Of a DNA stretch of 64,000 nt, positions 11,477-51,865 are shown one piece after another. The notes below the pieces were generated by a model. It saw nothing but the letters and a program-made list of their open reading frames with translations. It ran no database searches and had not been told where the DNA came from. The DNA comes from Chitinophagaceae bacterium. Its GTDB lineage: Bacteria; Bacteroidota; Bacteroidia; Chitinophagales; Chitinophagaceae. Numbering within the stretch: position 1 is the first letter of the stretch; every line of letters begins with the position of its first letter. Both the position numbers and the translations under genes were made by a program. The stretch covers positions 1 through 64,000 of the forward strand of contig JAQBNK010000152.1 in the NCBI GenBank assembly GCA_028288595.1. The letters run 5' to 3'.

Positions 11477-14095
11477 TTATTTCGTTACCAATTCTGCTGC
11501 CGTTTCATTTCTAAAAACCACCACTCCGTCAAATACGTCTACTACCACAGGATGCATTTTATCAATATCACCCCCCAGAATTTTTTTACTTAGGTGATTA
11601 ATGATCTCTTTCTGGATCAGCCGCTTTAATGGTCTCGCACCAAACTGGGGATCGTAACCATTTTCTGCGAGGTAATCCAGCAGGTAATCACTGAAGTTGA
11701 GAACAATTCCGCTTTGTGCCACCATATCTTTCAGGTGTTTCAACTGAATATTGATGATATTTTTTATCTCATTTTTCATGAGCGGCTGGAACATGATCAC
11801 TTCATCGATCCTGTTTAAAAATTCCGGCCTCATATTTTGTCTCAGGAGATTTAATACTTCCTCTTCTGTTTTTTCTACTACTTCTTCCCTGTTCTTTTCG
11901 TTCACATTTTCAAAAGCCTCCTGTATCACCGCACTTCCCATGTTGCTGGTCATGATGATAATAGTATTCTTAAAGTTTACTACACGACCCTTGTTATCAG
12001 TTAAACGTCCGTCATCCAAAACCTGCAACAATATATTGAACACATCAGGATGCGCTTTTTCAATTTCATCCAGCAATATTACACTGTAAGGTTTTCTTCT
12101 TACTGCTTCGGTTAATTGTCCACCTTCTTCATAACCTACATAACCGGGAGGCGCACCTACCAATCTTGAAACAGCATGTTTTTCCTGGTATTCACTCATG
12201 TCTATTCTTGTCATCATACTCTCATCATCAAACAAATATTCGGCAAGCGCTTTCGCCAGTTCTGTTTTACCTACGCCGGTTGTTCCTAAAAATATAAATG
12301 AACCTATTGGTTTCTTAGGATCGCTTAACCCGGCCCTGCTCCTACGGATGGCATCTGCAACAGCAGTAATTGCTTCCTGCTGCCCCACTACTCTCTGGTG
12401 CAGATGATTTTCTAAATGCAGCAGCTTTTCTTTTTCACTTTGCAACATACGGGTTACCGGAATACCAGTCGCCCTGGCTACATTTTCTGCAATATCATCT
12501 GCATCCACTTCCTCTTTTAATAAACGCTTTTCTGCAGACTGGTCTAACTGTACAGACAACTCATTTATGAGTTTTTCTTTTTCTTTTACTTTGCCGTAAC
12601 GGATCTCGGCCACCTTACCATAATCACCTTCACGCTCTGCTTTTTCTGCTTCCTGTCTCAATGTTTCAATATCTGTTTTAGCAGTTTGCACTTTGTCAAC
12701 CAGCTCTTTTTCCTGCTGCCATTTTGCTTTATAAGTATCACGTTCTACCATCATGTTGCTGATGGTCGTGTTCAGCTCTTTCAATTTGTCCTGGTCATCC
12801 TCTCTTTTGATCGCCTCCCTTTCTATTTCGAGTTGCCGGATGCGTCTTTCCAGTTCATCCAGTTCTTCGGGCATGGAATTCATTTCCAATCTTAGCTTAG
12901 CGGCACTTTCATCGATCAGGTCAATTGCCTTATCAGGAAGAAAACGATCGGTGATATAGCGGTTAGATAATTCAACTGCAGCAATGATCGCTTCGTCTTT
13001 AATTCTTACATGATGGTGCGCTTCGTAACGGTCTTTCAATCCGCGAAGAATAGAAATAGCGTCTTCTACATTTGGCTCATTTACCATTACTTTTTGAAAA
13101 CGACGCTCCAGCGCTTTATCTTTTTCAAAATATTTCTGATACTCATTTAATGTTGTTGCACCTATTGCTCTTAATTCTCCACGGGCCAGCGCCGGTTTTA
13201 AAATATTCGCGGCGTCCATCGCACCTTCGCCACCACCTGCTCCGACAAGCGTATGAATCTCATCAATGAAAAGGATGATCTCTCCATCACTTTTCGCCAC
13301 TTCATTTATCACCGCTTTTAATCGCTCTTCAAACTCTCCTTTATATTTTGCACCAGCAATCAGTTGTCCCAGGTCGAGGCCGAAAATGATCTTGCTTTTC
13401 AGATTTTCAGGCACATCACCATTTACAATACGCATTGCTAACCCTTCTGCTATCGCTGTTTTACCAACACCGGGTTCACCCACGAGTATGGGATTATTTT
13501 TAGAGCGCCGAGAAAGAATATGTAATGTTCTCCTGATCTCTTCATCCCGGCCGATCACAGGATCCAGCTTACCAGCACTGGCTAGTTCGTTCAGATTCCT
13601 GGCGTATTTCTGCAGCGCATGATATTGCTGCGATTGTGTTTGTGAGTTTACAGTTGATCCCTGTCTCAGATCGGTAATAGCAGCTACCAAACCCTTTTCT
13701 GTTGCGCCGGCATCCTTCAGCATTTTAGCGGCATCATCGCTGCCCTGTAAAATACCTAGTATTAAATGTTCAACACTTACAAATTCATCATTGAATTTCT
13801 TTAGTAACGCATTAGTTCGCAATAATGCACTGTTAAGATCACGGCTGATGGTTTGAGCAGGTTCACCACTTTGTATTTTTGGCAATTTAGTAATAGCATC
13901 TTCCAGTTTTGTTTCCACATAAGGAAGATTAACATTGTTCTTCTTCAATAAAAAATCCACAGGACTATCCTGGTCATCCAGCAATGCTTTTAAAACATGA
14001 ACAGTTTCAATAGCAGGATTACCGGCATTGAACGCCAATTGCTGGGCGGCCTGTATAATTTCCTGTGCCTTGATTGTATAGTTATTTAGATTCAT
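11477..14095 (-). CDS. clpB: ATP-dependent disaggregase ClpB
   Basis: At 872 residues it has full ClpB length and order: double Clp N-domain (1-145), first AAA+ module with Walker [11 protein letters not shown] and Walker [11 protein letters not shown], the long coiled-coil middle domain (about 400-530, rich in Glu, Lys and Arg), then the second AAA+ module with [10 protein letters not shown] and [10 protein letters not shown] and the ClpB D2-small domain. The middle domain separates ClpB from ClpA and ClpC. ClpB hexamers thread aggregated proteins together with DnaK after heat stress. It is monocistronic. Its upstream region holds the large heptamer hairpin D. Confidence 0.97.
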
Positions 14096-14118: not shown

Positions 14119-14208
14119 AGCTTTTAGTTCTTTGTAACGTGAATCGTCAATCGTGAAACGTGAATGAATTGACGATTCACGATCGACGATTCACGCTTAC
14201 TAAAAGCT
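14119..14208. repeat. heptamer word array D forming a long inverted repeat
   Basis: Four 7-nt units CGTNAAW (14138-14165) are followed by four mirrored units ATYNACG (14168-14195): 24 of 27 bases pair. An outer perfect 10-bp stem encloses it, AGCTTTTAGT (14119-14128) with ACTAAAAGCT (14199-14208). It lies between divergent clpB and a serine hydrolase, so it is promoter or leader DNA rather than a 3' end. Confidence 0.8.
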
Positions 14209-15293: not shown

Positions 15294-15310
15294 AGGGGGT
15301 TTCGGAATTC

Positions 15311-15411
15311 AGTATTTAGTATTTAGTATTTAGTATTTAGTATTTAGTATTTAGTATTTAGTATTTAGTATTTAGTATTTAGTATTTAGTATTTAGTATT
15401 TAGTATTTAGT
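15311..15411. repeat. perfect heptamer tandem array E (14 copies)
   Basis: AGTATTT is repeated 14 times without error (15311-15408) plus a partial unit. The flanks GTTTCGGA and TCCGCTGAAAC are imperfect mirrors. It lies between two same-strand genes. The perfect copies imply recent expansion and probable copy-number variation between strains. The flank TTCGGAATTCAGTATTTAG matches the array at the window end in 17 of 19 bases. Confidence 0.95.
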
Positions 15412-49941: not shown

Positions 49942-51153
49942 ATGAATCTCCACGAATACCAGGCAAAAGAGCTTTTGAAAAAATATAATGTGCCCGTGCA
50001 GGAAGGCATTGCGGTCGACAATGTAATGGCAGCTGAAGAAGCCTACAGGCAGATCAAGAATGAAACGAATAACAGTTTCGCCGTAATTAAAGCACAGATC
50101 CATGCGGGTGGCCGTGGAAAAGGAAAAATACAGGGTACAGAACAAAGAGGCGTTGCCGTTGCAAAAAAATTGGAAGACGTTACCGCTATTGCTAAGAATC
50201 TTTTGGGTGGAACACTGGTTACCATCCAGACAGGTGAAGCAGGAAAAAAAGTGAGCAAGATATTAGTAGCGCAGGATGTATATTATCCCGGACCAAATGA
50301 TGTAAAAGAATTTTACCTGTCTATTTTGCTCGACCGTGCAAAAGGCCAGAATGTAATAATGTATTCCACTGAAGGCGGAATGGATATTGAAGAAGTAGCG
50401 CATAATACACCAGATAAAATATATAAAGAGTGGGTGCATCCTTCCGGCGGATTGCAGGGCTTCCAGGCAAGAAAAATTGCTTTTAACCTGGGTTTAAGCG
50501 GCGATGCTTTTAAAAGCTGTGTAAAGTTTGTAACGAATTTATACAATGCCTATGTTGGTCTTGATTGCAGCATGCTGGAAATTAATCCGCTGTTTAAAAC
50601 CAGCGATGAAAAGATAATAGCTGTCGATTGCAAAATGAATGTTGACGATAATGCTTTGATGCGCCATGGTGATCTTGCTAATCTTCGTGATGTGAGTGAA
50701 GAAGACCCGACAGAAGTTGAAGCTGGCCAGTACAATCTCAACTTTGTAAAACTGGATGGCAATGTGGGCTGCATGGTAAACGGCGCTGGTTTAGCAATGG
50801 CTACCATGGATATGATCAAATTAAGCGGTGGCGAACCCGCAAACTTCCTTGATGTAGGTGGCACTGCCAATGCACAAACAGTGGAAGCCGGTTTCAGGAT
50901 CATCATGAAAGACCCGAATGTAAAAGCGATACTCATCAATATTTTCGGCGGTATTGTTCGCTGCGATCGTGTGGCTGCCGGTGTAATAGAAGCCTTCAAT
51001 AAACTTGGAAATATTACTATACCCATCATTGTTCGTTTGCAGGGAACAAACGCGGTAGAAGCAAAAAAACTAATTGATGAAAGCGGGTTGAAAGTTCAGT
51101 CTGCTATTTTATTAAGCGAAGCCGCAGCTTTGGTTAAGAAGGCGGTAGCGTAG
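49942..51153 (+). CDS. sucC: succinyl-CoA synthetase beta subunit (ADP-forming)
   Basis: A 403-residue TCA-cycle enzyme that, with SucD, makes succinate and ATP from succinyl-CoA. Features: MNLHEYQAKELLKKYNVPV, the ATP-grasp fold with GGRGKGKIQ, LEINPLFKT, AVDCKMNVDDNA and the CoA-ligase part VGGTANAQTVEAGF, NIFGGIVRCD and VRLQGTNA. Length fits ADP-forming SucC. sucD is not in the window, so the subunits are encoded apart, as in many Bacteroidota. Heptamer array F begins 3 nt after the stop. Confidence 0.97.
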   Translation: MNLHEYQAKELLKKYNVPVQEGIAVDNVMAAEEAYRQIKNETNNSFAVIKAQIHAGGRGKGKIQGTEQRGVAVAKKLEDVTAIAKNLLGGTLVTIQTGEAGKKVSKILVAQDVYYPGPNDVKEFYLSILLDRAKGQNVIMYSTEGGMDIEEVAHNTPDKIYKEWVHPSGGLQGFQARKIAFNLGLSGDAFKSCVKFVTNLYNAYVGLDCSMLEINPLFKTSDEKIIAVDCKMNVDDNALMRHGDLANLRDVSEEDPTEVEAGQYNLNFVKLDGNVGCMVNGAGLAMATMDMIKLSGGEPANFLDVGGTANAQTVEAGFRIIMKDPNVKAILINIFGGIVRCDRVAAGVIEAFNKLGNITIPIIVRLQGTNAVEAKKLIDESGLKVQSAILLSEAAALVKKAVA

Positions 51154-51154
51154 A

Positions 51155-51248
51155 TGGCAGTTGATAGTTGGCGGTTGGCAAGGAAAATACAATTGTACTT
51201 TGCCAACCACCAACTGCCAACTATCCAACCGCCAACTATCAACTGCCA
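51155..51248. repeat. heptamer word array F with 24-bp perfect inverted repeat
   Basis: Left side: 7-nt units of type GRYRGTT (51156-51176) then GGCAAGG. Right side: six units AACYRYC (51205-51247) with one extra base at 51226. The 24-bp arms 51155-51178 and 51225-51248 pair perfectly. A shorter inner stem, GGTTGGCAA (51173-51181) with TTGCCAACC (51200-51208), competes with it. The right arm covers the end of the SprT-like gene. Confidence 0.9.
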
Positions 51249-51865
51249 ACCACTCTCACCTCATACACGGGGCTGAATAAATAAATCAGCCCCGTTTTTA
51301 TTTCTATACACCTGAAGCGTTTTCTCAACTGCTCTCCTTTTCTGAAAGTTCTCCCATCGTGTGTTTGAAAGATGGAACCCCCAGGCAATTCCTGTATCAT
51401 ATGCATTCCGGGCTTTTTATGCCGGTCATATTGACGGAGTATGAGCAATAATTCTGTTTCTCCGTTGGCCGTGGCTGAAGGATTCCTGATTGATTTTTTT
51501 AGCGCCTTTTCAATATCGCCGGGGAAGATTTTCAACTCTACAAAATCAGTCAGCAACTGGCTGTAAGTCTTCTTCCATTCCGGCCCGTGAACTTCAGCTT
51601 TATTTCCAAATTGCTCGAATGTAAGCAGGTGAGCCAGTTCGTGCAGGAGTGTAATGATGAATTCATATTGATTAAGATTGCCGTTAACGGTAATACGGTG
51701 TGCTTTCCCCCGAAAAGGATGGCGGTAATCTCCCAGTACGGATCTGCGGGCTTTTGTTACGGTAAGATGTACTTTATAAAAATTGAGGTAGTGTACAACC
51801 TGCTCAAAACTTCCCTCCGGTACAAACTCTTCCAGGGCCTTCATTGGGTGTTCAACAGAACTCAT
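51239..51865 (-). CDS. SprT-like zinc metallopeptidase-domain protein
   Basis: A 208-residue protein with the zinc motif HELAHLLTFEQFG (about residue 77) and KTYSQLL in the SprT-like arrangement, preceded by HPFRGKAHRITVNGNLN. The SprT/Spartan family cuts DNA-linked proteins in eukaryotes; bacterial roles are poorly known. No zinc-ribbon is obvious at the C-terminus. The final codons (VVGS, stop) are supplied by the heptamer array. It overlaps the upstream AtpI-like gene by 4 nt. Confidence 0.82.
   Translation of the reverse strand: MSSVEHPMKALEEFVPEGSFEQVVHYLNFYKVHLTVTKARRSVLGDYRHPFRGKAHRITVNGNLNQYEFIITLLHELAHLLTFEQFGNKAEVHGPEWKKTYSQLLTDFVELKIFPGDIEKALKKSIRNPSATANGETELLLILRQYDRHKKPGMHMIQELPGGSIFQTHDGRTFRKGEQLRKRFRCIEIKTGLIYLFSPVYEVRVVGS

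Follow-up and report, generated by a model that had tools for sequence, protein, structure and literature searches.

Cyanobacterial STRR sequences are heptamers, some of which form hairpins and some of which lie in RNase P RNA, while in REP/RAYT elements a cognate RAYT accompanies a short palindrome that is constant and has been copied throughout the genome. Closer counterparts of the repeats described here come from other studies. In the sections drawn on here, Rehm et al. (2015, PMC4692102) described GGGAATC and GGGGA(C/T)T heptamers in Xanthomonas and Nostoc as degenerate, dispersed and found largely in intergenic sequence, with positions that overlap a stop codon or follow it closely and with few copies between divergent genes. 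In two Xanthomonas genomes, repeat pairs in opposite orientation stood close together in 70 and 75 cases. According to the parts of MacGregor (2015, PMC4679880) used here, TAACTGA direct repeats occur in Beggiatoaceae, Cyanobacteria and five Bacteroidetes. In the main genome of that study they lie mostly just upstream of start codons, with one inverted set against 169 direct ones, and in some Bacteroidetes other heptamer arrays occur alongside, with close relatives lacking them. As cited in these two papers, Mrazek et al. (2007) found heptanucleotides to be the commonest long prokaryotic simple sequence repeats and proposed polymerase slippage. Our literature search on heptameric repeats in Bacteroidota gave nothing on the subject among the matches listed.

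Here we analyzed a palindromic heptad array, Array F, in a 64,000-nucleotide stretch of Chitinophagaceae bacterium (GCA_028288595.1), hereafter the window. Array F is probably a heptameric intergenic repeat with a partial inverted copy, grown between two convergent stop codons. Rather than a lone curious hairpin, it is a member of a genome-wide repeat class.

Results

Array F is a degenerate heptad repeat between two convergent genes

The features of the locus are as follows.

49942..51153, plus strand: sucC-like gene, with a single base between its stop codon and the outer left arm
51155..51178, plus strand: outer left arm of the 24-bp inverted repeat, with heptads GTTGATA and GTTGGCG inside
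51173..51181, plus strand: left arm of the inner hairpin, 9 bp, with 51173-51178 common to the outer arm
51200..51208, plus strand: right arm of the inner hairpin, 9 bp
51201..51250, plus strand: right-hand heptad array, seven CAAC cores
51225..51248, plus strand: outer right arm, NNNCAAC heptads, overlapping the end of the SprT-like gene (minus strand)
51239..51865, minus strand: SprT-like gene, convergent with the sucC-like gene, with a HELAH motif in its translation
51267..51300, plus strand: intrinsic-terminator-like hairpin and T-tract in the sucC sense, inside SprT-like codons of the other strand

We take the product of 49942..51153 to be sucC-like, a name carried over from the preliminary description; tblastn matched this gene at 80-89% identity in 5 of 29 other loci. 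The name SprT-like is likewise assumed from that description. An Rfam search of the window at the gathering threshold returned one tRNA only, and the nearest records bearing names were Chitinophagaceae and other Bacteroidota MAGs.

The 85-nt gap between the two stop codons consists mostly of degenerate heptads, with a short AT-rich spacer. Heptads take the form GTTGNNN on the left, with GTTG cores at 51160, 51167 and 51174, and NNNCAAC on the right, with CAAC cores starting at 51204, 51211, 51218, 51226, 51233, 51240 and 51247. The right-hand spacing of 7, 7, 8, 7, 7 and 7 nt confirms the 7-nt phase with one inserted base that had been reported for these units. The outer arms are perfectly complementary over 24 bp around a 46-nt spacer, and coordinates and complementarity also bear out the 9-bp inner repeat reported with them. 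The longest perfect inverted repeat in the window was 24 bp; across 30 Markov-3 simulated versions of these 64 kb it was 11-14 bp. Both hairpins had been said to use the same left-arm bases; the overlap exists, but it is limited to six bases (51173-51178) and does not extend to the whole arm. An exact second copy of a 19-nt core of Array F was found at 2630-2648 of contig C28, just past another GTTGGCA array.

Both stems are present in one predicted fold

RNA fold prediction gave a minimum-energy structure of -72.7 kcal/mol over 171 nt on the sucC (plus) strand (z -9.3) and of -88.3 kcal/mol on the SprT (minus) strand (z -10.0), in agreement with the hairpins previously proposed. The further proposal that these hairpins are competing alternatives was not supported. 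The plus-strand minimum-energy fold contained 21 outer and 8 inner pairs at once, so that the predicted structures were not mutually exclusive. As bare helices, the 24-bp outer stem (-43.8 kcal/mol) and the combination of 18 outer and 9 inner pairs (-43.1 kcal/mol) were nearly equal, whereas the inner stem by itself gave -13.1 kcal/mol. Since the inner and outer stems overlap by 6 nt and coexist in the predicted fold, their relation would amount to branch migration over 6 bp. A register-shifted pairing in Array F reached -25.0 kcal/mol as a bare helix; such pairings follow from tandem repetition itself.

Array F encodes the last two residues of the SprT-like protein

The SprT-like frame terminates in ...VVGS*. 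The 24-bp right arm spans the stop, the Gly and Ser codons and a single base of the preceding Val codon, and the heptad array, which runs to 51250, takes in the whole of that Val codon. The statement that the right arm supplies the protein's end therefore holds for Gly-Ser and the stop. It does not hold for the residues before them, as EVRVV, with 0 to 6 residues after it, occurs at the same site in seven of 64 SprT loci (L056, L057, L066, L067, L070, L072 and L073), all array-less by a cut-off that also misses Array F. With EVRVV present in orthologues that lack a detected array, what sets the window's protein apart is the final Gly-Ser. In the comparison of C-termini with and without the array that the preliminary description had called for, the exact VVGS end was found in none of these array-less loci. 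The protein end varies widely across the 64 listed loci. In another genome, represented by L018 and L081, which are identical in sequence, a heptad array on TTAATGG writes the last codons, LVGNG*.

A heptad array lay between -25 and +225 of the SprT stop at 5 of 63 loci, from four distinct genomes, and inside the gene at 0 of 63; in the locus sets of 63 or 64, one genome (L018, L081) or more is counted twice. Niabella pedocola (L082) is a cultured relative in which an array follows SprT. Each of the four genomes with an array behind the SprT-like gene uses its own words, other than those of Array F. At L006, the convergent sucC/SprT junction is 8 nt wide and has no array detected. We infer that the arrays arose independently in different lineages.

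The hairpin at 51267-51300 is the likelier sucC terminator, separate from Array F. It has a 9-nt loop and came from our own scan, the terminator tool covering loops of 3-8 nt. The outer hairpin of Array F has no T-tract directly after it on either strand and so does not resemble an intrinsic terminator. Among 21 close convergent sucC/SprT junctions, a terminator-like hairpin was found in the gap at 15, inside SprT codons at 2 and not at all at 4. The two cases inside SprT codons are the window and L006.

Period-7 arrays are abundant in the genome and cluster behind stop codons

In a 681-kb sample of the same genome, we counted 51 period-7 arrays; the eight other periods compared, from 5 to 13, yielded 0-8 each. 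With a looser cut-off, the first 390 kb contained 39 period-7 clusters, compared with one in a Markov-3 control. Degenerate words and the one inserted base put Array F below the cut-off behind the count of 51, and it was caught by a longer scan; as the cut-offs used for the own genome, the relatives and the SprT loci all miss it, these counts are lower bounds. Extrapolated to 4.14 Mb, 51 arrays per 681 kb suggest that the genome may hold about 300.

By a simple home-made gene caller applied without annotation, 46 of the 51 arrays lay between called genes, 4 within called genes and 1 at an edge. Of the 37 arrays next to a gene's 3' end, 21 overlapped a stop codon or came within 15 nt of one, compared with 12.2 ± 2.2 expected from random placement of arrays in the same gaps. 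By the same measure, start codons showed no excess (9 of 35 arrays close, 8.8 expected). In tandem gaps, the upstream stop was the nearer end for 19 of 26 arrays. Convergent gaps held 11 arrays in 12.7 kb, tandem gaps 26 in 45.1 kb and divergent gaps 9 in 24.7 kb, an apparent tilt towards convergent gaps.

Within the window itself, other period-7 arrays lie near 2642, 6186, 14138/14168, 15307 and 63942. The array at 15307-15411 comprises fifteen near-perfect ATTTAGT copies and begins close to a called gene end. At 14138-14195, in a gap between divergent genes, four CGTGAAT-type heptads face four ATTCACG-type heptads with 2 nt between them.

Several words recur at unrelated loci of the genome, namely CGTGAAT/CGTCAAT, AATGAGT, TTTTGAC, TTTTCGA, ATTTAGA and GTTGGCA. 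An exact word was shared by 263 of 1514 same-genome array pairs (mean 92.8, maximum 125 in 100 column-permuted shuffles) and by 281 of 3818 different-genome pairs (mean 183.1, maximum 229 after column permutation).

Related genomes carry arrays patchily and share words

Twenty relatives, sampled at 40 kb each, yielded 53 period-7 clusters compared with 0-15 for other periods. Five genomes (G003, G009, G018, G020 and G026) held 49 of the 53, and eleven of the 20 held none. We then searched 156 family genomes for three-copy runs of individual word families. CGTSARN x3 was present in 45 genomes and 34 of 92 genera, TTGAAAR x3 in 10 genomes, and GTTGGMR x3, representing the Array F word family, in 12 genomes from 11 genera; the reversed-pattern controls matched 16, 6 and 6 genomes, respectively, as counted by eye. 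The reversed CGTSARN control is not neutral, because read backwards the pattern gives a word family that includes Array F words. In a phylum sample, CGTSARN x3 occurred in 15 of 198 genomes, below its reversed control at 28 (by eye). Slippage that starts at random seeds would not by itself put identical words into different genera; to account for the sharing, one has to assume in addition either copying from locus to locus or genome to genome, or some preference for certain sequences.

In genome G174, contigs C1, C3 and C7 start in or near pure GTTGGCA arrays, which suggests that long heptad arrays break assemblies.

A subset of arrays carries inverted arms

Inverted arms scoring at least 16 were found at 12 of 51 arrays of the own genome and at 4 of 269 gaps without an array. 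The median inverted-repeat score was 9 for arrays and 8 for controls, so most arrays of this genome are not strongly palindromic. Among relatives, arms of this score were found at 12 of 14 arrays in G009, 11 of 15 in G020, 2 of 8 in G003, 0 of 9 in G018 and 0 of 3 in G026, with arms in G009 and G020 reaching up to 34 perfect bp.

Mirrored word order stood out in two long pairs, for which at most 2% of unit-order shuffles were as good. For Array F, 34% of shuffles were as good, and 21 of 23 pairs were singly not significant. The pairs in the mirroring and register tests had been chosen for pairing, and the register test is therefore biased. The mirroring test is the fairer of the two, though weak for pairs taken one at a time.

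At L095 in G009, for instance at 12130-12335, perfect inverted arms of same-word heptads flank unrelated spacers, and one arm-flanked spacer contains a strong terminator-like hairpin. Arms around unrelated spacers in G009, where some spacers contain what by eye is a terminator-like hairpin, are not predicted by a purely neutral view.

Word families and the hairpin nuclease SbcCD

SbcCD is a nuclease that cuts DNA hairpins. Its subunit SbcD (TIGR00619 over the cut-off) was detected in 22 of the 156 family genomes, with scores of at least 166 bits throughout, while the best match elsewhere reached 32 bits; it was not found in most sampled family genomes (134 of 156). CGTSARN x3 was present in 0 of 22 SbcD-positive and 45 of 134 SbcD-negative genomes (Fisher p 5e-4, uncorrected for kinship and G+C) and missing from the other 89 SbcD-negative ones. 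By genus, the counts were 0 of 18 SbcD-positive and 32 of 74 others (p 2e-4, by eye and likewise uncorrected for kinship and G+C). GTTGGMR x3 showed no significant difference (0 of 22 vs. 12 of 134, p 0.22), and TTGAAAR x3 leaned in the opposite direction (3 of 22 vs. 7 of 134, p 0.15); the three SbcD-positive genomes concerned had few matches, in one orientation.

Counted independently of words and leaving out runs of N (two genomes), arrays numbered 10 in 814 kb of the 22 SbcD-positive genomes and 53 in 720 kb of 18 SbcD-negative ones, from samples not perfectly matched, since the SbcD-positive stretches were partly short contigs and one genome gave less than 10 kb. Any array at all was found in 6 of 22 SbcD-positive and 9 of 18 SbcD-negative genomes (Mann-Whitney p 0.09). 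One SbcD-positive genome, G143, contributed 5 of the 10 arrays, and the SbcD-negative arrays came mostly from few genomes. We regard the association of SbcD with arrays as a lead, not a result. A 7-base vocabulary common to genomes of this family might, as a tentative idea, spread among loci and genera as palindromic arrays that persist mainly where SbcCD has been lost. If loss of SbcCD does let palindromes accumulate, a repair nuclease would be tied to the intergenic architecture of the genome.

Discussion

Array F looks like gap-growing repeat DNA, not a gene switch. Arrays of this kind may lengthen when replication slips by 7 nt at a time, and fold-back (template-switch) copying of the first arm could have produced the second, in which case the hairpins would be a by-product. 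The fold-back step is put forward as a proposal, since mirroring reached significance in two of the 23 pairs when each was tested alone, and Array F was not one of them. Tolerance of the arrays would follow from two properties: gaps just behind stop codons hold little information, and, 7 not being a multiple of 3, words containing TGA, TAG or TAA would close every frame within 21 nt. Once transcribed, Array F would fold into a stable hairpin within the 3' UTR, upstream of the terminator of sucC, and any effect on mRNA stability would be secondary.

Two other readings give the hairpin a function in RNA. It could be a selected bidirectional 3'-end element that protects or terminates both convergent mRNAs, as its very stable predicted fold on both strands, its seat between two convergent stop codons and the more-than-random proximity of arrays to stop codons might suggest. 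Yet the outer hairpin lacks a following T-tract in either direction, a separate terminator-like hairpin with a T-tract stands at 51267-51300, 15 of 21 close convergent junctions have such a hairpin in the gap, and an array was absent at 58 of 63 SprT loci by the test that also misses Array F. Position and predicted stability are what speak for a 3'-end role, which we consider doubtful. A riboswitch-like pair of competing hairpins controlling sucC or sprT is most improbable. Two overlapping stems are indeed present, but the joint predicted fold contains both, the inner stem alone is about 30 kcal/mol less favourable, tandem repeats produce the shifted pairing as a side effect, and no conserved equivalent turned up at the sucC/SprT junctions of the orthologous loci examined. 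On the helix energies and the joint fold, we rejected a competing-hairpin switch.

The remaining readings concern how the DNA itself moves or varies. Arrays that are dispersed, palindromic and intergenic recall mobile elements of the REP/MITE type, mobilized by a RAYT (Y1 transposase) or similar enzyme, and Y1_Tnp matches were found once in the own genome and four times each in the array-rich G020 and G026. Y1_Tnp turned up, however, in 17 of the 21 genomes searched, without relation to array density, including the array-less samples G027, G028 and G033, while the array-rich G003 and G018 gave only weak matches. With many words, unrelated spacers and no fixed sequence, the class also lacks the constancy of REP elements, and we judged a RAYT/REP origin unlikely. 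A phase-variable contingency locus, in which changes in unit number shift the SprT C-terminus or expression, would fit tandem units overlapping the SprT-like stop codon. It is very unlikely nonetheless: stop codons within the words would close the frames and leave few terminal residues to change, the flanking genes appear housekeeping-like, and slippage should be poor in degenerate units.

A heptameric repeat with a partial inverted copy thus remains our preferred reading of Array F, and known systems offer several points of comparison. The cyanobacterial STRR heptamers have the same unit length but belong to another phylum and use other words. TAACTGA repeats, in the parts of the account used here, are likewise heptameric, intergenic and patchy between lineages; they use one word, whereas the words of Array F differ and sit between two stop codons. 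The repeats of Mrazek et al. share the 7-nt period, and the passages citing them do not mention a palindromic arrangement. The Xanthomonas and Nostoc heptamers, in the sections drawn on, resemble the present class in their genome-wide 7-nt excess (here 51 arrays at period 7 and 0-8 at each other period), in their intergenic and stop-adjacent placement (here 46 of 51, and 21 of 37 against 12.2) and in their opposite-orientation pairs, seen here in Array F and 12 of 51 own-genome arrays, with none in G018 and G026. They differ in having one G-rich, quadruplex-forming word where there are many words here, and arms here can be perfect inverted copies; by eye, none of the words GTTGGCA, GTTGGCG and GTTGATA in Array F contains GGG. 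Heptamer repeats of Xanthomonas, Nostoc, Beggiatoaceae and some Bacteroidetes are thus already known, and what is new in the class of Array F, in our judgement, is its many-worded, G-poor, palindromic form. On the precedents of Rehm et al. (2015) and MacGregor (2015), as far as the sections used here extend, we judge Array F to be a variant of this known kind of heptamer repeat.
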